37,457 nt of DNA. Origin: a virus. Below, in pieces: positions 1-36,354 of the stretch; the stretch's first letter is position 1, and every line of letters begins with the position of its first letter. The stretch covers positions 1-37,457 of IMG/VR virus record IMGVR_UViG_3300014720_000075. The stretch is one strand, 5' to 3'. The notes under the pieces were generated by a model. The model saw nothing but the letters and a program-made list of their open reading frames with translations, was not told the DNA's origin and searched no databases. The translations under genes and the position numbers were made by a program.

Positions 1-862
1 ATGCTTCTTGTTGATCTAACTGTCCAAGGGTTGCAAGTCTTGTTGCTTCCGTTGTTGCAGAAATAAGTTTTTCATTTTGTGCTCCAGATGCTGCTGCTTC
101 TGCAGCAAGGCCAATAGTATCTTTAACAGCAATACCATATTTTGTAAATTCTGCAGCTAAACCTTTAATTGCTTGAGTATTTTTATCTAATTCTGCTGGT
201 GTTGTAAATGCATCACCGTATACTTTTCTAAATCTAACAAGTGCCTGATCAATATCAGCAAATGCTTTACCAGCGGCTGTAGCAAAAATTGTTAAGGGTA
301 CAGTAAAACCAACCATGAGCTGGCGGCCAGCCCATTGAGTATTCTTACCAAAGTTAATCATAGACGTTGTAGCTTGACGAAGCATTGCTCTATGAATAGC
401 AAGTCTTTCATTAGATACTGCTGCTTCTGCATTAAATGCTGCTAGGGGACGAATAGCAATAGCATCTTTAAATCCACCAACAGATTGCCCAGCAGAAATA
501 AAACTTGTTTGTAATGCTTGTACTCTTGAATGAGCTAATGAAAGAACTTCTGCTGCTGCTGCACTATCTTTAATAAATCTAGCACTAAAGAATTGACCAA
601 GAGTTCCCTTTCCTTTAGAAAGTGTTTGATCAAGTCTGCGTGCAGAAGTCTCCATCTTAACTTGTTGTGCAGTAAACATTTGACTCATATTTACTGCATT
701 CATCAAGTCTGATGAAAGAGCACGCATAGCATCAGACTGAACAACACTATTTTTATTTAGTGTTAAATTAAATGCATTGATTTGACTTTGAAGTTGTCGA
801 AGTCCTGCAGCCGCACCAGCGGTATTAATATCAATATTAATTACTGCTCTTGCATCAGCCAT
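1..862 (-). CDS. Tail tape measure protein, N-terminal part (cut by window edge)
   Basis: The reading frame runs from an ATG at 862 off the left edge, giving 287 codons without a stop. The translation begins MADARAVINIDINTAGAAAG and continues as an alanine-, glutamine- and serine-rich, mostly helical chain typical of tape measure proteins. Further in is a hydrophobic stretch (MVGFTVPLTIFATAAGKAF), also usual for this family. Tape measure proteins set tail length and sit inside the tail tube. Position supports the call: it follows the frameshifted tail chaperone directly, with a TAATG stop-start overlap that suggests translational coupling. The C-terminal part, which may carry peptidoglycan-active domains, is outside the window. 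Confidence 0.9.
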   Translation of the reverse strand, partial: MADARAVINIDINTAGAAAGLRQLQSQINAFNLTLNKNSVVQSDAMRALSSDLMNAVNMSQMFTAQQVKMETSARRLDQTLSKGKGTLGQFFSARFIKDSAAAAEVLSLAHSRVQALQTSFISAGQSVGGFKDAIAIRPLAAFNAEAAVSNERLAIHRAMLRQATTSMINFGKNTQWAGRQLMVGFTVPLTIFATAAGKAFADIDQALVRFRKVYGDAFTTPAELDKNTQAIKGLAAEFTKYGIAVKDTIGLAAEAAASGAQNEKLISATTEATRLATLGQLDQQEA

Positions 863-9473: not shown

Positions 9474-12400
9474 TTACACTGGTTTACCACTAAAAAGTGA
9501 CCACGTTATACCAGTATAGAGTTTTGTACTATCAGATGTTACCGTTAATGTTGACGAATCTTGTGCAACAATATTTGATAAACCTAGGTGTGATTCAAAA
9601 ATATCATCAACTTTTTTAATAATGCTTTGATTATAAATAGAAACATTATTAAAAAGTATTTTTGGATGAATTTCAAGTCTTCCAATGTAGTTGTCCATTG
9701 ATAAAGGATCAGTAAATGAAAATGTAATAAACGACCACGACATTGGATATAGATGCTGATTATCTAATAAGATTCCGTTTTGATAATAATTGATATTTGT
9801 ATATTCAACATCTCCAGATAATGTTTTACGATATGCCACAAGTTTTGCACGTTTATTATTATCTTGTGGAATCAGGTAAAAGTTAAATGTTTCTGTTTCA
9901 GATAACAATGTTAATATTTTTATATTTTCAGAAAACTCTCTTGACTCGTTATAACATAACCAAAAATTCATTCCATGCAAATCATATTCTGTATTTTTAA
10001 ATTGATTTATAGGAATAGAAATTCCTCTATTATAAGAAAGACTATTATTATCAATAAATGAGTATGGAAGTGATGTAATGCCAGACTCTGCCGTTAAAAA
10101 TAAATATGGCATAGAATCTTTATATATTACAAATGGATTCTTTATTTTTGTTGAATAAGATCTTCCTTGTCTAGAAAATGGATAAATTTTATTACCATTA
10201 ATTGTATTAACTGCATATAAACTTCTTTCATCAAATGAAAGAGACGCCATTGACATTCTTTTAAGAACTAGTGGATTTGTATTTATAGCATTAGTTTTTA
10301 TTTCAATATGAATTGTTATATATGCATCGTTAAATGATATTAATTCTTTTGGAGTAAAAATAACTGTTCCATCTATAATTTCAAATTTTGTTATATCAAT
10401 ATCTGTTGTAACTTGATCAAAGTCAATGATTCTTTCTTCTTCCAGATCCTTTGTTATTGTATATGTAGAATATCCAACATCACCAACATCTTGTGAAGAC
10501 TTTAATGTTACATAGCAGTACATATTTCTTTCGGTGTCATTATTTAAATTATCGCTAATAAATCCAGAGGATGGAAAATCAATATTGAACTGTATCATAT
10601 CTAAGTCTGAATCAGTTATGTCACCACGACCATTTCTTACATATGAGGCAAAATATGATAGTGGAATGGAGTCTTCCCAATAACCACATAAACCTATATC
10701 CATGATCATGCTTTCATTTGTTTTTATAAAATTAAGCGTATAATTTCCTATATATTTAACAATGTTTGATGATAAAGATATTTCTGGACTATTTGATATT
10801 ACAAATATTCCATCATTATTAAAATAATCATCTAAATCTTTATCTGTAAAAAATTTATTATTAAATGTTACAGAATATATTTTTCCTGTAAACATATTTT
10901 TTTGATTACCACCAACTGTAAAATTTATGTTTTGTGGATTTGCAAAAAAATTCTTTATAATTGCAGAATATTCTTCAGTTAATTTATCAAATTTTAATCC
11001 TGCAACAAATACATTATCATTAGCAGTTATTGAAAGGGTGTATTCATAAATAGTTGTTGAAGACGTAGTTGATTGATACTTATATATTAGTTTTTGAGAT
11101 GTTGGATTTATATAGATTTTGAATGATTCACCTGTAGCATTATTAAGAAAATGCATTAGTGTTAATTCACTTATATTTGCATCACTAATAGCTTTATTTA
11201 TTTCATCTGTATTTATGCTAAAAACACCGAACACAGAAGATACCCTATCATTTAAAACATTAAAACCTTTAAATGAAAGAAATCCATATATATTTTCATA
11301 AGATAAATTTGGTCTAAATTTTATAAACTTATTTTGTTTTGTATCATCTTGTATTGAATTATTATCTGTTAAAGTATTTACAGTAAATGTTGCACTGGCT
11401 GAATTGCCAACATACAAAATTTCTGGTTTTGAATAAGTTGTTGGTAAAGATATAGATTTTGAATTAACTTGTAAGTTTGAATAAATAGCATCTGACCATC
11501 TATTTATATCTGGATATATAAGATTTGTTGTATAGTCACTATAAGCAAAATCAATGTTTGTTAAATTGCCACCAAACTTTTTAACAATATCATCAGACTT
11601 ACCAACACCCTGACCAAATACAAACTTTCTTTTTGCTAGTTGTTCTGGAACAATGTATGGATATATTGCAATACAGTCAATTTCAAATGGATAAATATCT
11701 GATGAAGAATAAAAACCGAGCCAATCGTTATTGTAACTTAGGTCGTCAACAAATGATATTTGTGTTGGATCCATAGTTATACTAATAACTATTTCTCCAT
11801 TAATCATTACTGTTGCATAATTTGGAGTGTATGTAATATCTATAAGAACTGGTCTGTACCACTTGGGCATAAAATATGATTGTTCATAAGGACCAATTTT
11901 AAGTGTTAAAAAGTTTCTATTTACATATAGCCCGTCTAAACTATCTAATGGTCCAAATATTCTAAACGATTCTTTTTTATTTACATTTATTCTTAACCAG
12001 AACTCTGTTGTCAATTGCTTATATTTACCATTATTGTGTAAAAATCCTTTACCTGGAATAACTAATGATGGTCCATCATACGTTGATGCATAAATCTCTG
12101 TTATGTTTCCAGACCCATATACCATTGGTAACTTTGAATTTAGTGCAAGCATTTTATTATTTTCAATAAAATAATAGCCATTATCAGTATCAGAAAGACT
12201 ATATGAATCAATTTCAACAGTTTTAACTAATGATGGTGTACTTAAATATGGACTACCAATGCTAGATATTATTCCACCAGAAGCACTTAGTGATGTAAAT
12301 GGAACCGTTAGAGATCCCTCTGTATCTGCATTATATTGTTCTGACCATTGACCAACAGCAAATCTACTAATTGAAAACTTCTGATTTTTAGGAAGAATAT

Positions 12401-12965: not shown

Positions 12966-14915
12966 TTATTTTGCTACAACACTAGAACCAATATCAACAA
13001 TATCGCAAGCCCCTGCAGTACAAGAAAGTTCTTGTGATCCTGTTGTATTATCTTCAATCTCATACAGTGGCAAAGACTCCCAGGGAATTTCCTTTGGCAT
13101 TTTTAGTAGCCACTCTTCATATTCTTCCTTGGTTATCTCTTGGTATGGAGCCTGCTTGTATGAATGCTCTGAATATGGAAGAAATGCTACTCCACCAATG
13201 TCATCAAAGTTATCATAAACCCATGCACCAACTCTAATCCATTCATCTTCCTTAACATTGATTGTCACAGATGGATTGTGCTCTGTCCAATGCTTTCTAT
13301 ATGTCTTCCATATTTCAAGGTGATCAATAGCGGATAGATCTTTTGTTACCACTGCACCATCTGGAGCTTTGATTGGAAAATAAAATACGGTTGTATCATT
13401 TGGCTTCATAACATCTGGCTCATTAGGTACACCAAAATCCTTAAGGAAAATTGTTAAAGGATCCTTGTTGTCTCCACGAACAGAGCGAAGGTAGTATGAT
13501 GAATACCAGGGGTGAATGCCACTAGATACCCCAGTTAGCTGTGATACGGTCCCTGAAGGCTTAACACAGGTAATTGATGCTGAGGGATTGATTCCTAGTT
13601 TTTCGGCCTCCATTTTATTTACTTCAACTGAGTGCTCTCTCATCTTGTCCAAAAGCATTGCTAGACCATCAGTATTTGTTGAGGTAAGAGTGTTTCCAAA
13701 AATTCCTGTAAGTGACACTCCTAGAAGTCTTTCCTCCTCACAGTTATCCTTCCATGACTTACGAATGTACTTAAAGTTTGTAAGAGTTGACTGCCATGTT
13801 CCAAGAATTGTTGCAAGCTTGATCTTGTTCATAATATCTTTAGCAGTATCATTCGCTCCAACAACTACCTCTGTTAGATTACAGAACTCATTAGGACGAA
13901 GAAGAATCTCCCCACAAGGATTTGTGCCTGCAACCTTAGATGAGTCTCTTCTACCAAACTTATCAATATGCTTTCTAACGGAATCCATATTGTAAATACC
14001 ACGTTCCCCTGACTTTGACTCATACAGATTGCGCCACTCTCTAAGGAACTGTGCTACGTTTGGCTTAGTATTATAAATGGCAGAATTATTTGCTAGTGCT
14101 CGTTGTGCATCATTCTCCCACCAATTACCATTCTTTGCCTTTGCCATTTCAAAATCATCAAGGTTAGAAAGTGAAATCAATGCAGAACGACGGACACCAC
14201 CAACAACAACTATCTCGCCAATCTTGCACATGATGTCATGTGCTTCAATGGGCTTAAGTCTACGTCCAGCAGCATTCTTGAAAATATCAACGGTAAATCT
14301 AAAAAGGGCATCAAGTGGTTCTGGTCCAGATGCACGACCACCAAATGTCTTGAGTCTTGCTCCAGCAGGACGAACCTTAGACATATCCCACTTTGGCATT
14401 TGACCTTGATTTAAAAGGGCAATGAGTTCTTTATATGACTTTGCCCATCCAAGTTTGGAATCATCAACAACAATAACAGTATCTGTTGGGTAAAATGATT
14501 CAGCATTTACAGGAAGCTGATCAATGTATTTATGCTCAACAGAGAAGCCAACACCAGTACCATTCATCAAAATATACATTGCTTCATCAAATGCACGAAG
14601 ACTATCAACGGCGGTGAATGAGCAGTTATAGGAAGCAATGTTGTCACGCTCTAGTGCAACTCCAGCAGTCATCAGGGCACGCATAGATGGCATAATATGA
14701 TGATTGAGAATAGCATCACGAATTGAACCGTATGTCTTATCATCTACATCATAGTTATAGTTTGCAGATAGATGACTTCTCATAAAACTCATGTATCTAT
14801 TTACTGTTTCAACCCATGTTTCCCTTCTTCCATCGGTGTCTATCCATCTTGCGTATCTGCTTACATGGATGAAATTTCTGTATGGGTCTTTTATAGATCC
14901 TGAGTTTGTTAACAT
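12966..14915 (-). CDS. nrdJ: Adenosylcobalamin-dependent ribonucleoside-triphosphate reductase (class II)
   Basis: The 649-residue enzyme reduces ribonucleotides to deoxyribonucleotides using a vitamin B12 radical. It matches the monomeric RTPR type: the thiyl site NPCGEILL at 332-339 with Cys334 and Glu336, the redox pair Cys98 (SYNCSF) and Cys345 (NEFCNL), the GTGVGFSVEHKY loop near 119-130, and the PSGTVSQLTG phosphate site. A C-terminal shuttle pair SCTAGACD is present. It is shorter than the 739-residue Lactobacillus enzyme. Class II enzymes need no oxygen and no small subunit, so one gene suffices. The start has AAGGAAG upstream. It supplies dNTPs with ThyX. Confidence 0.95.
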   Translation of the reverse strand: MLTNSGSIKDPYRNFIHVSRYARWIDTDGRRETWVETVNRYMSFMRSHLSANYNYDVDDKTYGSIRDAILNHHIMPSMRALMTAGVALERDNIASYNCSFTAVDSLRAFDEAMYILMNGTGVGFSVEHKYIDQLPVNAESFYPTDTVIVVDDSKLGWAKSYKELIALLNQGQMPKWDMSKVRPAGARLKTFGGRASGPEPLDALFRFTVDIFKNAAGRRLKPIEAHDIMCKIGEIVVVGGVRRSALISLSNLDDFEMAKAKNGNWWENDAQRALANNSAIYNTKPNVAQFLREWRNLYESKSGERGIYNMDSVRKHIDKFGRRDSSKVAGTNPCGEILLRPNEFCNLTEVVVGANDTAKDIMNKIKLATILGTWQSTLTNFKYIRKSWKDNCEEERLLGVSLTGIFGNTLTSTNTDGLAMLLDKMREHSVEVNKMEAEKLGINPSASITCVKPSGTVSQLTGVSSGIHPWYSSYYLRSVRGDNKDPLTIFLKDFGVPNEPDVMKPNDTTVFYFPIKAPDGAVVTKDLSAIDHLEIWKTYRKHWTEHNPSVTINVKEDEWIRVGAWVYDNFDDIGGVAFLPYSEHSYKQAPYQEITKEEYEEWLLKMPKEIPWESLPLYEIEDNTTGSQELSCTAGACDIVDIGSSVVAK

Positions 14916-31084: not shown

Positions 31085-31741
31085 TTATATATTTTTTCTT
31101 ATATAGTACATTGGTCTACCGTTTCCAACATTACGGGCACGGTAGGTTGATGTAAGAGCATGACAATTAGGACAAATTACTTCTAGGTTATTATATGAAT
31201 GATTTAAACCATTACCATCAATATGATTAATTTCTAATATTGTATGCCCATCGTCAGGATGCGGGGTATTAAAACCACATTTCTGACACATATAGTTTGC
31301 CTGTTTTAATAAATATTTTCTTATTATTTGTGATAAACCATAATCTGTTCCACCTCTCCATGAACCACTCAACCAATCTTTTACTTTATTATCATTTTTT
31401 AATTTTGTAGAAATTTTTACAGAACATGATTTACAATAACCAGACTTTTGCTTTATAATTGTATTACATTGCAAACAACTACCCCCTGTCAGCGGATCTG
31501 GGCATGAGCCTTCTAAGCTCGTTGAGAAAGTTCGACTCTTTCTAGGGGGACAATTATTAAAAATATTCATGCAAGAAAGACACCAAGTTTTTCTTGTATT
31601 AACTGGTTCACCACAATTTCTACAACTACCCTCTGGTTTTCTTCTGTTATAAATACCTAATGTATTATTATATGTTGCAGCACAGGATCTAGAACAAAAT
31701 TTAAAATTATTTGTTTCGGACTTGCATGTTAAACAACGCAT
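31085..31741 (-). CDS. HNH endonuclease with zinc-ribbon N-terminus
   Basis: The 218-residue protein has several Cys pairs in its N-terminal half (MRCLTCKSET, FCSRSC, CRNCGEP, CLSCMN, CLQC and CKSC), arranged like serial zinc ribbons, and a C-terminal HNH domain with CQKCGFNT, EINHIDGNGLNHSYNNLEVI and CPNCHALT. Free-standing HNH nucleases in phages are homing endonucleases or DNA processing enzymes; the zinc ribbons would bind DNA. The start has no ribosome binding site; an extended -10 box TGCTAGAAT ends six bases before the ATG. Confidence 0.85.
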   Translation of the reverse strand: MRCLTCKSETNNFKFCSRSCAATYNNTLGIYNRRKPEGSCRNCGEPVNTRKTWCLSCMNIFNNCPPRKSRTFSTSLEGSCPDPLTGGSCLQCNTIIKQKSGYCKSCSVKISTKLKNDNKVKDWLSGSWRGGTDYGLSQIIRKYLLKQANYMCQKCGFNTPHPDDGHTILEINHIDGNGLNHSYNNLEVICPNCHALTSTYRARNVGNGRPMYYIRKNI

Positions 31742-31778: not shown

Positions 31779-31849
31779 GCCTCTATAGCATAAAAGTAAT
31801 GCACCGCTCTTGTAAAGCGGTGAAGAGGGAGCGTTACCTTCTAGAGGCT
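31779..31849 (+). tRNA. tRNA-Thr (TGT), atypical elbow loops
   Basis: Acceptor GCCTCTA/TAGAGGC; D arm GCAT/ATGC with loop AAAAGTA; anticodon arm CCGCT/AGCGG around CTTGTAA, anticodon TGT; T arm GAGGG/CCTTC with loop AGCGTTA; discriminator T. Stems are good, but D loop has no GG and T loop no TTC. Same type of deviation as the tRNA-Gly 0.9 kb upstream. CCA is not encoded. Confidence 0.6.
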
Positions 31850-31856
31850 CAGGATG

Positions 31857-31867: not shown

Positions 31868-32164
31868 GTGCTTGAAAAAGAGAGAAGTCAGACAGAAAGA
31901 CAAAAGATTAGAAGCTATCTTGCAGCAATTAAAAATACAAGTGGCTGCATAGATTGTGGATCAATGTATCCACACTATGTTCTTGATTTTGATCATGTTC
32001 GTGGAACAAAGATTGACAATCTTTCTTTCATGGCACGGTGGTATAGTATTGAAGATATAGATAAAGAGCTAAGTAAGTGTGAAATAGTCTGTGCAAACTG
32101 TCATAGACAACGAACCCATCAGAGGAATAATGAGAAAAAGCAAACAAAGCAACTTGTGCTTTGA
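31868..32164 (+). CDS. Small HNH-like endonuclease
   Basis: The 98-residue protein begins at GTG and has GCIDCGSMYPHYVLDFDHVR and IVCANCHRQRTHQRN, a short HNH zinc nuclease core (CxxC ... DFDH ... CANCH). No additional DNA-binding domain is present. Such mini-HNH genes often sit next to tRNAs or nucleotide genes as mobile elements. No ribosome binding site; the TATAAT box is five bases before GTG. It overlaps the next gene by 35 bases in another frame. Confidence 0.8.
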   Translation: MLEKERSQTERQKIRSYLAAIKNTSGCIDCGSMYPHYVLDFDHVRGTKIDNLSFMARWYSIEDIDKELSKCEIVCANCHRQRTHQRNNEKKQTKQLVL

Positions 32165-33173
32165 CGATATACTACTTGTTCCACAAACAAGTAATGTTGA
32201 ATCAAGACATAATGTAAAGCTAACAATGAGTATTGGTAAGGGTAAAAAGGAGATTTCACTCTCACTACCCGTTATTGCTGCACCAATGGATTCAGTATGT
32301 GGATTCGAAATGTGCATAGCAATGGCTGAGTCTGGTGGTCTTGGAATTCTTCATAGATATATGTCTAAAGATGAACAATTAAAAATTGCATATGATATTG
32401 TTCAGTACGAATATGCTGGATTTGGTGTAGCAATTGCATCAAATAATGGATTTATTGAACAGGCTAAAAAGCTTTACGATATTGGAACAAGACTATTTGT
32501 TATTGATACAGCAAATGGTCATGGCATATACACATTGAGAGCAACAGCAAAATTAAGAGAATCATTTCCAGATTGTCACATTATGGCTGGCAATGTTTCT
32601 ACTGTAAAGGGATTCAAAGACCTTGCTGATTGTGGAGCAGACTCTATTCGTGTTGGTATCGGTGGCGGTGCAGCATGTACAACAAGGCTTGTAAGTGGTC
32701 ACGGCGTTCCCACTCTTGCCTCAGTTATGGATATTGAAGAATATAGAGAAAGTCGTGGAATATATAATTGTTCTATTATTGCTGATGGAGGTATTCGTAA
32801 TAGTGGAGATATGGTTAAGGCATTTGCTGCAGGAGCAGACGCAGTAATGGTTGGCTCCATGCTTGCTGGAACAACAGAGTCACCTGGATCTATTCTTATA
32901 GATAATAATGGGAAGAAGAAAAAGGTATTTCGTGGAATGGCAAGTGCAGATGCACAGTTGTCTGGAACAGGAAAGATTTCTATTCCTGAAGGCATTTCTA
33001 CTACCGTTCCATACAAAGGTAGTGTCTATGATATTTTAGATCAAATTAGCGGTGGCCTTGGAAGTGGATGCTCATATTCTGGTACAGATAAACTTGAAAA
33101 TCTTAATGTAGTTGCTGAATATATTGAGGTTACTCAAGCAAGTCTTGACGAATCACGACCACATGCTTTATAA
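32130..33173 (+). CDS. IMP dehydrogenase / GMP reductase family enzyme, no CBS domain
   Basis: The ATG at 32130 after AGAGGAATA is chosen; it gives 347 residues starting MRKSKQSNLCFDDILLVPQT. The TIM barrel has APMDSV near 51-56, the catalytic Cys183 in VGIGGGAACTTRLVSGHGVP and the phosphate site IADGGIRNSGDMVKAFAAGA and ADAVMVGSMLAGT. There is no CBS insertion. The end (GGLGSGCSYSGTDKLENL) has a Cys-Ser-Tyr like the 'CTYVGA..L' of GMP reductases, so I lean to GMP reductase, but IMP dehydrogenase is not excluded. It would shift the purine pool. It lies with other nucleotide genes. Confidence 0.82.
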   Translation: MRKSKQSNLCFDDILLVPQTSNVESRHNVKLTMSIGKGKKEISLSLPVIAAPMDSVCGFEMCIAMAESGGLGILHRYMSKDEQLKIAYDIVQYEYAGFGVAIASNNGFIEQAKKLYDIGTRLFVIDTANGHGIYTLRATAKLRESFPDCHIMAGNVSTVKGFKDLADCGADSIRVGIGGGAACTTRLVSGHGVPTLASVMDIEEYRESRGIYNCSIIADGGIRNSGDMVKAFAAGADAVMVGSMLAGTTESPGSILIDNNGKKKKVFRGMASADAQLSGTGKISIPEGISTTVPYKGSVYDILDQISGGLGSGCSYSGTDKLENLNVVAEYIEVTQASLDESRPHAL

Positions 33174-33183
33174 TAGTTTATCT

Positions 33184-33257
33184 GCCCCGTTAGAGTAGCG
33201 GTTTATCTCATCTGACTTTCACTCAGAAGAACATCGGTTCGAATCCGATACGGGGTA
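33184..33257 (+). tRNA. tRNA-Glu (TTC)
   Basis: Canonical cloverleaf: acceptor GCCCCGT/ACGGGGT with a G-T first pair, D arm GAG/CTC with GG in its loop, anticodon arm TCTGA/TCAGA around CTTTCAC, T arm ATCGG/CCGAT with TTCGAAT, discriminator A. First gene of the tRNA cluster. Confidence 0.88.
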
Positions 33258-33261
33258 CTCT

Positions 33262-33341
33262 GCCTGATAGTCCCCAAGGTGGGGAAGCGGTCTGTAAAAC
33301 CGTCGCTTAACGGCAGGTTGGTTCGATTCCAACATCAGGCA
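33262..33341 (+). tRNA. tRNA-Tyr (GTA)
   Basis: Class II tRNA with a 13-base variable region: acceptor GCCTGAT/ATCAGGC, anticodon arm GCGGT/ACCGT around CTGTAAA, T arm GTTGG/CCAAC with TTCGATT, discriminator A. D arm is C/G-rich (TCCCC/GGGGA). Confidence 0.85.
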
Positions 33342-33352
33342 CGGGAGGAATA

Positions 33353-33430
33353 ATGAATGTTGTAGATAAATATAAGTCTATGCTATTAGAAGATATTCGT
33401 GCAGATGTTTTATTGAACCGTGAATGTTAG
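33353..33430 (+). CDS. Possible tiny protein of 25 residues within the tRNA cluster
   Basis: GGGAGGAATA precedes an ATG, and 25 codons follow: MNVVDKYKSMLLEDIRADVL then LNREC. A perfect ribosome binding site and the helical amphipathic product suggest translation, though it could equally be a decayed gene start. Nothing can be said about function. Confidence 0.4.
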   Translation: MNVVDKYKSMLLEDIRADVLLNREC

Positions 33431-33447
33431 CGTTGCTTCTGGTATTA

Positions 33448-33508
33448 TACTGGACCAATTTCTAAGGGAATATATGAAATTACTGGACCAATTTCTAAGG
33501 GAATATAT
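33448..33508 (+). repeat. Tandem direct repeat, 28 identical bases at a 33-base period
   Basis: The segments 33448-33475 and 33481-33508 (beginning TACTGGACCAATTTCTAAGG) are identical and start 33 bases apart. In one frame they encode the repeated peptide LDQFLREY. Each copy carries AAGGGAATAT, a ribosome-binding-like site; only the first is followed by ATG (33474). Confidence 0.85.
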
Positions 33509-33545
33509 TAAATTAATGTACGAATACAGAAGACAGCACGGATGA
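33474..33545 (+). CDS. Possible tiny protein made from the duplicated segment
   Basis: The ATG at 33474 is preceded by AAGGGAATAT. The frame reads MKLLDQFLREYIKLMYEYRR then QHG and stops at TGA inside the next tRNA. The frame is also open upstream to 33417 with a GTG at 33420. The strongly amphipathic, repeated peptide hints at a coding origin. Low confidence. Confidence 0.3.
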   Translation: MKLLDQFLREYIKLMYEYRRQHG

Positions 33546-33612
33546 TTAACTCAGTGGCTAGAGTGGAGCCTTTACACGGCTTTGGTCGGGAGTTCGAATC
33601 TCTCATCATCCA
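33540..33612 (+). tRNA. tRNA-Val (TAC)
   Basis: Canonical cloverleaf: acceptor GGATGAT/ATCATCC, D arm ACTC/GAGT with GG in the loop, anticodon arm GAGCC/GGCTT around TTTACAC, T arm GGGAG/CTCTC with TTCGAAT, discriminator A. Confidence 0.88.
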
Positions 33613-33613
33613 C

Positions 33614-33685
33614 TCCCCGTTGGTGTAATCGGCAACACGGCAGGCTCTGAACCTGCAATACGAGGATCGTAACCTTGGCGGGGAG
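33614..33685 (+). tRNA. tRNA-Gln (CTG)
   Basis: Acceptor TCCCCGT/GCGGGGA with a T-G last pair, D arm GTGT/ACAC with GG in the loop, anticodon arm GCAGG/CCTGC around CTCTGAA, T arm CGAGG/CCTTG with the unusual loop ATCGTAA, discriminator G. It starts one base after tRNA-Val. Confidence 0.82.
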
Positions 33686-33689
33686 CAGA

Positions 33690-33756
33690 GATAGTGTAGT
33701 GTAAAGGAAGCACAATTAGGAACAACTAGGTATGAGTTCAACTCTCATCACTATCT
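33690..33756 (+). tRNA. tRNA-like element with degenerate anticodon arm
   Basis: Acceptor GATAGTG/CACTATC (extendable by GA/TC pairs), D arm GTGT/GCAC with GG in its loop, T arm ATGAG/CTCAT with TTCAACT. Between them only 18 bases remain instead of about 23: TTAG/CTAG around a six-base loop GAACAA with no T at position 33. An isotype cannot be given. Confidence 0.5.
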
Positions 33757-33762
33757 CATTCA

Positions 33763-33834
33763 TGGTCTGTAGCTCAACGGCAGAGCAATGAGCTGTTAAC
33801 TCATTGGTTGGAGGTTCGAATCCTCCCAGACCAG
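33763..33834 (+). tRNA. tRNA-Asn (GTT)
   Basis: Canonical cloverleaf: acceptor TGGTCTG/CAGACCA, D arm GCTC/GAGC, anticodon arm ATGAG/CTCAT around CTGTTAA, T arm GGAGG/CCTCC with TTCGAAT, discriminator G. Last of the main tRNA run. Confidence 0.9.
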
Positions 33835-33856
33835 CGATAAATTAAAAGGAGATATA

Positions 33857-34105
33857 ATGATTGATGCAGTTGTACTTTCATGTGCAATAAATTTTGGTGG
33901 CTTTTATTCTGAGCCAGCAAGTCGTGGAGCAAGAACTGCTGCATGTCTTGCAGCACATGATTTTATTGAAAACAGAGTTCTTAAGGAAACAGTTAGTTTT
34001 ATTTCTCTTTCTGCTCAGCAGGATTGGACAAAGATTTCCGCATATGAATGGGAAATCATTGGACGAGAAGAAGCAAGGCTAAAGAAATTAAATACAGAAA
34101 GGTAA
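33857..34105 (+). CDS. Small hypothetical protein
   Basis: The 82-residue protein starts at an ATG after AAAAGGAGATATA and reads MIDAVVLSCAINFGGFYSEP, then a helical SRGARTAACLAAHDFIENRV and an acidic/basic end. I recognise no family. It ends two bases before the cytosine deaminase gene and is probably in one operon with it and the tRNAs. Confidence 0.6.
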   Translation: MIDAVVLSCAINFGGFYSEPASRGARTAACLAAHDFIENRVLKETVSFISLSAQQDWTKISAYEWEIIGREEARLKKLNTER

Positions 34106-34107
34106 AT

Positions 34108-34551
34108 ATGCACGATCAATTAGCATATACATATGCACTAGAGGCTGCATATAAGAGTTTGAGAGATGGTGGCATCCCCATTGGTGCTGCACTTGTTGTA
34201 GATGATAAAATTATCTCAGTAGGGCATAATCAAAGAATACAGATGGGTAGCTCTATTCATCATGGAGAAACAAACTGCATTGAAAATGCAGGAAGGCTTT
34301 CTTCAAAAATATATTCAAAATCCACTATTTATACCACTCTTTCTCCGTGTACAATGTGTGCTGGAACTATCTTACTTTATAAGATTCCAAGAGTTGTTAT
34401 CGGAGAGAATGAAACATTTGAGGCAAGTGAAAGTTGGCTTAAGTCAAACGGGGTAGAGGTTGTTGTTCTTGATGACTTTGAGACAAAGCATATGTTTCAG
34501 AAATGGTGTAAAATGAATCCAAAACTATGGAATGAAGATATTGGCGTATAA
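34108..34551 (+). CDS. Cytosine deaminase, yeast FCY1 type
   Basis: The ATG at 34108 with AGAAAGGT upstream gives 147 residues. The zinc-deaminase signature is complete: His52 and catalytic Glu54 in HHGETNCIENAGR, and Cys81 and Cys84 in SPCTMCAG. The flanking segments GGIPIGAALVVD, GHNQRIQMGSS, YTTLSPC, YKIPRVVIGENETF and the end WNEDIG match, as I recall it, yeast cytosine deaminase (HGE at 62-64, C91, C94; GENVNF; WFEDIGE) rather than phage dCMP deaminases. It should convert cytosine to uracil (EC 3.5.4.1). It lies with ThyX and nrdJ as a pyrimidine-supply enzyme. Confidence 0.85.
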   Translation: MHDQLAYTYALEAAYKSLRDGGIPIGAALVVDDKIISVGHNQRIQMGSSIHHGETNCIENAGRLSSKIYSKSTIYTTLSPCTMCAGTILLYKIPRVVIGENETFEASESWLKSNGVEVVVLDDFETKHMFQKWCKMNPKLWNEDIGV

Positions 34552-34566
34552 AATTCTTGAGGAAGT

Positions 34567-34983
34567 ATGGAAGATCAATGGGCACTAGCCCTAAGCATAT
34601 GGGAAAAAATAGTAAAAGAGTTTAGAAATATTGATTCAAATGCCCCCAGCGCAAACCACAAAACCCTGACTACGGAGGAAATTATGAAAAGCAGTATCAC
34701 ACCAAACAAGTTTGTAAGCGTTGCTCTTGAAATTCTAGAAGAGCACTACAAAATGAATCCTAATATGAATTATCATCCACAGGATATTGCAGCAAATATT
34801 GGATCGATTATCTATACAATGGGAGAATCAATGGGAGTTATTCCTGCCATGCAAATGGAGCGGGAGGCAATTGCAAATAATCTGTTTGATTATATTGATA
34901 GTACAAATAATCTTACAGAAGAACAGTATAATAAGAAATATAAAAAAGAATATTTTGAACCAGAACTACCACTAAAGTACTAG
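34567..34983 (+). CDS. Hypothetical protein, two possible starts, ends in tmRNA
   Basis: From the ATG at 34567 (after GAGGAAGT) the protein has 138 residues beginning MEDQWALALSIWEKIVKEFR. A second ATG at 34684 has an even better site, GGAGGAAATT, and gives 99 residues beginning MKSSITPNKFVSVALEILEE. Both may be used. The C-terminal part is helical (IGSIIYTMGESMGVIPAMQM). The final base of the TAG stop (34983) is the first base of the tmRNA. No family recognised. Confidence 0.65.
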   Translation: MEDQWALALSIWEKIVKEFRNIDSNAPSANHKTLTTEEIMKSSITPNKFVSVALEILEEHYKMNPNMNYHPQDIAANIGSIIYTMGESMGVIPAMQMEREAIANNLFDYIDSTNNLTEEQYNKKYKKEYFEPELPLKY

Positions 34984-35242
34984 GGGCTGAGTAGGATCGA
35001 TTCTATCAGGATCTTTAAGTAGCATCTCAAGTTGAGAACCTTGTAAAAATCTCAAAAACAGTAACTGGCGCAACACAAAACGCCTACGCTCTAGCAGCAT
35101 AATAGAGCCGTGCGGCAACTGCATGGGAACAGAAAGTTGCATATGCAAGAAAAATGTAATACAATGTAATGACGCTAGTGCATAGATGTAACTGCGAAAA
35201 GAATAATGATAGAAGACGGGGGTGCAATTCCCCCCAGCTCCA
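34983..35242 (+). ncRNA. ssrA: Transfer-messenger RNA (tmRNA)
   Basis: A tRNA-like end is made by GGGGCTG (34983-34989) and CAGCTCC (35235-35241) with a T arm GGGGG/CCCCC around TGCAATT and A as the last base. A long-range helix forms from TTCTATCA (35001-35008) and TGATAGAA (35207-35214). The mRNA-like part has GCA ACA CAA AAC GCC TAC then GCT CTA GCA GCA TAA TAG, encoding the tag ATQNAYALAA, whose YALAA end is the usual degradation signal. Length is about 260 nt, shorter than the 350-400 nt of bacterial tmRNA; only part of the pseudoknot region seems kept. CCA is not encoded (the end reads ACGA). It rescues stalled ribosomes with host SmpB. Confidence 0.9.
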
Positions 35243-35255
35243 CGAAAGGATATTT

Positions 35256-35651
35256 ATGCCACTTTGGAAAACTCCGTCTGGAGTTGACAAGATTAAGATC
35301 CAGCCTAAAGTCTGGACATATGTAAAGTTTGAAAATGATAGATACTTCCCTCTTTCTAATGGGGGATGGTCTTTGGTAGAGGTGATGTTGAGAGTTGAAT
35401 ACCCAAAAACAGGGTGCCCTAAAACGCTTCGTGGCAAGTTTGTCCGATTTCCTGGAACAGCTTTCGAAGATGAAACAGGAAATAATGACGTTGACCCTAT
35501 TATCGGTGCTACTCGCCATCACCATTGGCAGCATTTTCTTATTAACCAGGGCAATATGACCTTGGGATTTCGGGTATGGCATGATGGAAGTTCTCCTATC
35601 GTTATTGATGGTAGACAGTTTAAAGCAGTAGCGTTCACACCTAGTAGTTAG
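35256..35651 (+). CDS. Hypothetical beta-rich protein
   Basis: The ATG at 35256 with AAAGGA, immediately after the tmRNA, gives 131 residues beginning MPLWKTPSGVDKIKIQPKVW. The sequence is rich in aromatic and Gly residues, with KTLRGKFVRFPGTAFEDETG and RHHHWQHFLINQGNMTLGFR, and looks like a compact beta fold. I recognise no family; similar short proteins are found in actinophages. Its Shine-Dalgarno site directly follows the tmRNA 3' end, so the mRNA must be released by tmRNA processing or made as one transcript. Confidence 0.68.
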   Translation: MPLWKTPSGVDKIKIQPKVWTYVKFENDRYFPLSNGGWSLVEVMLRVEYPKTGCPKTLRGKFVRFPGTAFEDETGNNDVDPIIGATRHHHWQHFLINQGNMTLGFRVWHDGSSPIVIDGRQFKAVAFTPSS

Positions 35652-35658
35652 GAAATAT

Positions 35659-36354
35659 ATGCATCAGGTATTAGATCACGGATATGTGAAGATGGTTTCT
35701 TCTATGGGTACAGACATAGATGTTGTTAATGCAGCACGGGTATCCTTTGATAAAGAAGTAGAAGAACTTGGTGATCGTGATAAGAAACTTATTGAGTTTC
35801 TTGTCAAGCATAAGCATGACTCTACCCTTCGTCATTGTGTTATGACCCTAGAAGTTTATGCACCGCTTATGGTTGCACGTCAATGGTACAAGCACGCTGT
35901 TGCATCAAGCCATATCGATGACCAACTAGGATGGAACGAATCTTCTCGTCGTTATGTAACAGAGAATGAAGAATTTTATGTTCCCGATGCTGACATGTGG
36001 AGATCTGCATCAACAGATAAAAAGCAGGGAAGCGGGGAACCCATTGACATCAATACTGGTGTTAAATATACACAAACACTCAATCAAATGATTAGATACT
36101 ATTCATTGATTTATAGACAGGCACTTAAAGATGGACTAGCTCCTGAACAAGCACGACTTCTTCTTCCTGCCTATGCTATGTATGTTCGATGGAGATGGAC
36201 AGCAAGCCTTAATGCATTGCTTCACTTTATATCATTGAGATATGCATCAGATGCACAATATGAGATCCGCGAATATGCGAAGGCGGTATATGAAGAAGTT
36301 AAAGAACGCTTTCCCATTACTACAGAAGAATGGATAAAACATAGAGTCCACTAG
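35659..36354 (+). CDS. thyX: Flavin-dependent thymidylate synthase
   Basis: The 231-residue enzyme makes dTMP from dUMP using FAD, NADPH and methylenetetrahydrofolate. Motif evidence: RHCVMTLEVYAPLMVARQWY KHA region followed by the WNESSRRYV signature (NEsSRRY), and a C-terminal LLLPAYAMYVRWRWTASLNA LLHF region with ISLRYASDAQYEIR for flavin and dUMP. The usual RHRxxSxNExSxRY is spread by an insert of about eleven residues (SHIDDQLGW). It is one gene downstream of the tmRNA. Start is ATG after TAGGAAATAT. Its stop overlaps that of the convergent peptidase gene (CTAG). Confidence 0.93.
   Translation: MHQVLDHGYVKMVSSMGTDIDVVNAARVSFDKEVEELGDRDKKLIEFLVKHKHDSTLRHCVMTLEVYAPLMVARQWYKHAVASSHIDDQLGWNESSRRYVTENEEFYVPDADMWRSASTDKKQGSGEPIDINTGVKYTQTLNQMIRYYSLIYRQALKDGLAPEQARLLLPAYAMYVRWRWTASLNALLHFISLRYASDAQYEIREYAKAVYEEVKERFPITTEEWIKHRVH

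Follow-up and report, generated by a model that had tools for sequence, protein, structure and literature searches.

A trimmed one-piece tmRNA gene in a fragment of a Stanwilliamsviridae-like phage and the compact pseudoknot it shares with other phage tmRNAs

Genomic context of the tmRNA locus

The stretch of DNA analysed here (hereafter, the window) corresponds to an IMG/VR record of 37,457 bases, classed as linear and probably representing a fragment of a phage genome. It contains a tmRNA (ssrA) gene of 260 nt, embedded in a one-strand run of phage genes and flanked by phage genes on both sides (Table 1). A previous reading, made from the letters alone (the sequence-only reading), had placed the tmRNA beside tRNA genes, and a tRNA cluster was indeed located at nt 33184–33835. 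Two tRNA-like stretches (nt 31482–31550, 33.8 bits; nt 33690–33756, 42.9 bits) scored above the Rfam cut-off with no ARAGORN call. The tmRNA overlaps the preceding ORF by a single base, its first, which completes that ORF's stop codon. Just beyond the 3' end of the tmRNA there is a likely ribosome-binding site for the following ORF, so that the tmRNA is probably excised from a longer transcript. The window also carries a set of nucleotide-metabolism genes, namely IMP dehydrogenase/GMP reductase, deaminase, ThyX and ribonucleotide reductase (nt 32091–33173, 34048–34551, 35659–36354 and 12966–14915).

The best named relatives of the capsid protease are Streptomyces phages of the Stanwilliamsviridae (38.7% over 99% in Tomas). 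The gene order ribonucleotide reductase-portal-protease is that of phage Sham, and ThyX is close to tRNAs in both. As the ribonucleotide reductase, portal and capsid protease genes have relatives arranged alike in that family, and a tmRNA is present as well, the record is, by gene content, a fragment of an uncultured Stanwilliamsviridae-like phage, kin to the large Streptomyces phages and low in GC, a placement based on gene relatedness and order on a 37-kb fragment. Judging from its Streptomyces phage relatives, the host would be an actinobacterium. A contig 99.97% identical to the window (L058/L138) ends before the tmRNA and thus brings no confirmation of this stretch.

Table 1. Features of the tmRNA locus, its neighbourhood and the tmRNAs reached through ThyX relatives
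Feature	Position or length	Strand	Details and evidence
tRNA-Thr(tgt)	31779-31850		further upstream of the tRNA cluster; ARAGORN/Rfam
tRNA-Glu(ttc)	33184-33258	+	ARAGORN/Rfam
tRNA-Tyr(gta)	33262-33342	+	ARAGORN/Rfam
tRNA-Val(tac)	33540-33613	+	ARAGORN/Rfam
tRNA-Gln(ctg)	33614-33686	+	ARAGORN/Rfam
tRNA-like match	33690-33756	+	Rfam only, no ARAGORN call
tRNA-Asn(gtt)	33763-33835	+	ARAGORN/Rfam
tmRNA (ssrA) gene, 260 nt	34983-35242	+	ARAGORN; RF00023; fold
Acceptor stem H1, 5' strand	34983-34989	+	GGGGCUG; G3 pairs with U35239
H2, 5' strands	35001-35026	+	UUCUAUCA 35001-35008; AUCUUU 35011-35016; GCAUC 35022-35026
PK1	35028-35055	+	S1 CAAG 35028-35031/CUUG 35040-35043; S2 UUGAGA 35032-35037/UCUCAA 35050-35055
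Tag frame GATQNAYALAA	35067-35105	+	resume codon GGC 35067-35069; stops TAA TAG 35100-35105
Helix H5 around the stop codons	35088-35108	+	GCUCU 35088-35092/AGAGC 35104-35108
Compact H-type pseudoknot PK2	35108-35140	+	CCGUGC.G.GCAACU.GCAU.G.GG.AACAGAA.AGUUGC
Short linker in place of PK3/PK4	35141-35184	+	cmscan gap; inspection
H2, 3' strands	35185-35214	+	GAUGU 35185-35189; AAAGAAU 35198-35204; UGAUAGAA 35207-35214
T arm	35218-35234	+	GGGGG-UGCAAUU-CCCCC; covariance match, sequence
H1, 3' strand	35235-35241	+	CAGCUCC; covariance match, sequence
Small ORF, no assigned function	35256-35651	+	directly 3' of the tmRNA; no Pfam match
ThyX thymidylate synthase	35659-36354	+	PF02511, 144.8 bits
tmRNA of L216	322 nt		tag ASNQSTYALAA; via ThyX relatives
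tmRNA of L217	261 nt		tag GVTQNALALAA; via ThyX relatives
tmRNA of L218	L013 9711-9985, 275 nt		tag GKNINAYALAA; via ThyX relatives
tmRNA of L219	226 nt		tag ...NNQNAFALAA; via ThyX relatives

Detection and structure of the tmRNA

ARAGORN called a tmRNA at nt 34983–35243, with the tag GATQNAYALAA and two stops, and Rfam model RF00023 matched over its full length at nt 34983–35245 (82.9 bits against a gathering score of 47; E 7e-31). The two checks proposed with the sequence-only reading, a covariance search and ARAGORN, thus agree with its identification of ssrA, made from tRNA-like ends, T arm, long-range helix (TTCTATCA/TGATAGAA, at nt 35001–35008/35207–35214), tag frame and two stops. As relaxed ARAGORN thresholds give many false tmRNAs, they were never used as sole evidence. 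The fold had a minimum free energy of -77.6 kcal/mol, lower than that of any of 200 dinucleotide shuffles (z -4.07).

The sequence marks that define a one-piece tmRNA are present: a covariance score above the gathering cut-off, an acceptor stem with a G3-U pair (the alanine identity pair), T arm and H2 with no anticodon arm, and a tag frame (GGC...TAATAG) preceded by A at position -4 (A35063) and closed by a stop. A discriminator A is found at nt 35242, and CCA is absent from the gene, which ends ...CTCCA-CGA. On this sequence evidence, the presence of a complete phage-encoded tmRNA at nt 34983–35242 is confirmed.

The four-pseudoknot plan, typical of tmRNAs but not universal and hence not defining, is reduced to PK1, assigned manually from sequence positions, and PK2; neither cmscan nor inspection recognised a further pseudoknot at nt 35141–35184, and PK3 and PK4 are missing. 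C35108 is common to H5 and PK2, so that H5 may consist of 4 pairs; its counterpart is GCACU/AGUGC in the related phage loci L217, L219 and L305. The T loop (nt 35223–35229, TGCAATT) has a G in place of the nearly universal U55, a substitution shared with L218 (TGCGATT) among the phage tmRNAs examined, and the region of the D-loop (GGATCGA) lacks one base.

This combination of PK1 and PK2, with PK3/PK4 absent, is also that of plastid tmRNAs and some cyanobacterial members (PMC1168896), which are not phage-encoded and resemble the window gene in pseudoknot plan. In E. coli, tmRNA stays active when its pseudoknots are replaced (PMC2481249) which, together with the plastid molecules, makes the loss of PK3/PK4 compatible with function.

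In a comparison set of 60 actinobacterial genomes, tmRNA was found in 55, with lengths of 317–389 nt (median 354) and RF00023 scores of 100–217 bits. At 260 nt the window gene is thus shorter than host genes, as had been supposed from sequence, while host ssrA has the same fold and tag ending.

Tag reading frame

In E. coli the frame is chosen through A86, at position -4 from the resume codon, and to a lesser degree through U85, at -5 (PMC2481249). With GGC as resume codon, the equivalents of both are in place (A at -4, U at -5), whereas GCA would have U at -4 and C at -5; moreover, homologous phage tmRNAs start one codon earlier than GCA, with G or A, after a conserved AUAAAC/U. Since only GGC has the expected bases and relatives start at the same codon, the tag is most likely GATQNAYALAA. 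Of the tag first proposed, ATQNAYALAA, the YALAA end and the two stops stand, but it started one codon late and omitted the leading G.

Besides those of L217 and L218 (Table 1), the tags of relatives include L305 GNSQNAFALAA, L307 GNTQATFALAA and Karimac ANSNVASAYALAA. A frame broken in relatives and a covariance score under the threshold had been named beforehand as evidence against a tmRNA, and neither applies: the score is above the cut-off, and in L216–L219 the frame is open and ends in ALAA. The ALAA codons of relatives show synonymous changes with the tag frame kept; the frame is under selection in these phages. ALAA is the end of most actinobacterial tags too. Two host tmRNAs from small low-GC actinobacterial genomes (L330, L333) carry 8-residue tags, AEPAYALA and AETAYALA, with a single final A.

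Other phage tags lack the ALAA end: BillNye ...YALVTV, L302 ...FALQTV, L299 ...SLATV, Iota (L314) ...AAALV, L297 GTSHEAPMQLAS and L300 ...EVALAVA. Phage tags ending in VTV, QTV, ATV, LV, LAS or AVA may be stable tags that escape ClpXP.

tmRNAs of related phages

Searching IMG/VR through ThyX relatives led to four further tmRNAs (Table 1). In contig L013 the tmRNA of L218 lies 15 bases upstream of thyX, which starts at nt 10001, that is, in the same place as in the window. Standard ARAGORN made no call for L218 and L219, and in L218 PK1 is apparently replaced by a small hairpin (UUGG-CAA-CCAA). Reduction goes further in L305 (nt 1501–1727), L307, L308 and L219/L306, whose tmRNAs of 226–227 nt are without recognisable PK1, PK3 and PK4 and fall below 250 nt, the minimum given in a 2005 survey for tmRNAs that have a reading frame (PMC1168896). 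Long forms also occur, of 424 nt (L303/L235) and 468 nt (L304/L239), with 27-residue tags ending APVALAA and the same compact pseudoknot; the L235 contig encodes groEL and the L239 contig thymidylate synthase.

Capsid protease and ribonucleotide reductase baits retrieved many close relatives; among 100 records searched, most of them fragments, tmRNA was found only in thyX-linked ones, three over the cut-off and one just below. With the IMPDH protein as bait, viral contigs yielded no relatives. No tmRNA is seen in several long contigs from related phages (e.g., G001, 101 kb), which shows the gene to be dispensable in part of the group; in the sequences at hand it is an accessory gene of the wider related group. 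A tmRNA over the cut-off was present in all six complete Stanwilliamsviridae genomes (Samisti12, Peebs, Tomas, Karimac, Sham and BillNye), and in Rhodococcus phage Trina none exceeded it. In the related contig L217, a manA RNA motif lies between two tRNA genes (nt 256–440, minus strand; RF01745, 82.4 bits). In the L251-type phages, for which enterobacterial hosts were considered, one tRNA resembles those of T5-like phages and the 1017-aa protein is without match.

Phage tmRNAs had been described in the sequence-only reading as known mainly from cluster C mycobacteriophages. Nearer kin are found in the Streptomyces Stanwilliamsviridae, where the tmRNA of cluster BE1 is already published (PMC5764925). 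As in the window, cluster BE phages (Karimac, Samisti12, Peebs, Tomas) have a one-piece gene among tRNAs, an ALAA tag (ANSNVASAYALAA and similar), a compact 3' pseudoknot with an AACAGAA loop and a genome without SmpB. Their tmRNAs, however, measure 269–281 nt and lie near 98 kb of the genome, whereas that of the window is 260 nt long, AT-richer and placed just upstream of thyX, and its tag, unlike theirs, begins with Gly. Cluster C (the Bxz1 group), represented here by Iota, has a phage-encoded one-piece tmRNA too, but of 437 nt, with the tag ATDTDATVTDAEIEAFFAEEAAALV and no GGAACAGAA pseudoknot; the long tag without ALAA that marks this cluster (AAALV end in Iota) is not that of the window, which ends in YALAA.

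A compact 3' pseudoknot shared by phage tmRNAs

The exact pattern CC.GNNC.n.S2.GNNU.N.GG.AACAGAA.S2' matched in 21 viral contigs, and in 19 of them the match was a tmRNA, from Streptomyces phages and from uncultured phages of other kinds. In 84,980 bacterial species the same pattern gave 22 matches, none of them a tmRNA, and GGAACAGAA, present in the window, was absent from the 29 actinobacterial host genes with an ARAGORN tmRNA call. The motif was also missing from Iota and from Bacillus phage G.

In 18 aligned phage tmRNAs, 98.1% of cells were paired and nine of 12 pairs had two-sided changes, with none of 500 shuffles as high, although the pattern used for scanning dictated part of S2, so that S2 counts from loci found in this way are biased toward sameness. 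Independent evidence of paired changes comes from L218, Tomas, Peebs, Sham and BillNye, found by other routes; the S2 stem is replaced in L218 (CTAGAC/GTCTAG) and in Tomas (GTGACT/AGTCAC).

We tentatively propose, as a possibility that falls somewhat short of probable, that the window gene belongs to a phage-resident tmRNA lineage marked by the compact pseudoknot, which would have passed between unrelated phages, shrunk (to 226 nt without PK1) and split into ALAA-keeping and ALAA-replacing branches.

Proposed function and alternative explanations

Extending the earlier remark that no smpB was seen, a search for smpB (PF01668) across 25 records of related phages, among which are eight whole genomes, found none; of the 14 named genomes in the control search, 10 gave a PF01668 match. 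The tmRNA of the window, itself a 37-kb fragment of a genome that may carry smpB elsewhere, most likely uses host SmpB, given the relatives without the gene.

In all the sequence tests that could be applied the molecule appears functional, and it is very probably a working one-piece phage-encoded tmRNA adding ribosome-rescue capacity with a degradation tag. In the predicted fold, the tRNA-like domain is joined by H2 to PK1, the tag frame, H5 and one compact pseudoknot. The 3' CCA would be supplied by a host enzyme, and host AlaRS would charge the RNA via the G3-U pair; with host SmpB and EF-Tu it would then enter ribosomes that had stalled on a broken or non-stop mRNA. Translation would resume at GGC, add the 11-residue tag and stop at TAA TAG, freeing the ribosome, and the ...ALAA end would direct the tagged peptide to host ClpXP-type proteases. 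The phage may gain extra rescue capacity in infection, while host and phage mRNAs degrade, alongside its phage-borne tRNAs.

The sequence-only reading had also considered that the phage redirects trans-translation, or keeps it running when host ssrA is lost. Replacement of the host tag by a phage tag that alters the fate of stalled proteins is conceivable where the ALAA end has been lost (BillNye, L302, L299, Iota, L297), but it is improbable for the window copy, which with its closest relatives keeps ALAA as most actinobacterial tags do, so that the same fate, ordinary degradation, is expected. Loss of host ssrA found no support here; to our knowledge, this gene is near universal in bacteria.

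Slightly less probable still is a decoy RNA that sequesters host SmpB, AlaRS or EF-Tu and so damps host trans-translation. This role has been proposed for an RNA of mycobacteriophage DS6A that consists of the tRNA-like domain only, and inhibition of this kind is reported for a DS6A-like molecule (PMC4131195; PMC11915505). The slight deviations in T loop and D-loop would suit such a role; yet the tag frame, stops, A at -4, PK1, H5 and PK2, unneeded by a decoy, are all kept, and relatives preserve frame and PK2 with compensating changes.

Because ssrA is a common integration site (PMC11915505), an integration remnant or captured bacterial fragment was considered, and is very unlikely: the gene is complete rather than a bare 3' end, it is flanked on either side by phage genes with no integrase seen, the pseudoknot occurs in other phage tmRNAs and, by exact-pattern scan, in no bacterial one, and in a second phage L218 has the equivalent position. 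The reading as a chance match or pseudogene, suggested by a score of 82.9 bits below the actinobacterial range, is equally implausible with an E-value of 7e-31, stems and frame intact, a z of -4.07 and PK2 covariation.

A working rescue tmRNA, as preferred here, is ordinary for this phage family, from which tmRNA genes have been described before, and the trimmed form and the pseudoknot shared across phages add modestly to this picture. The finding extends the tmRNA of the Streptomyces Stanwilliamsviridae to low-GC uncultured relatives, and the naturally trimmed phage tmRNAs provide a set for asking which parts of a tmRNA are needed.
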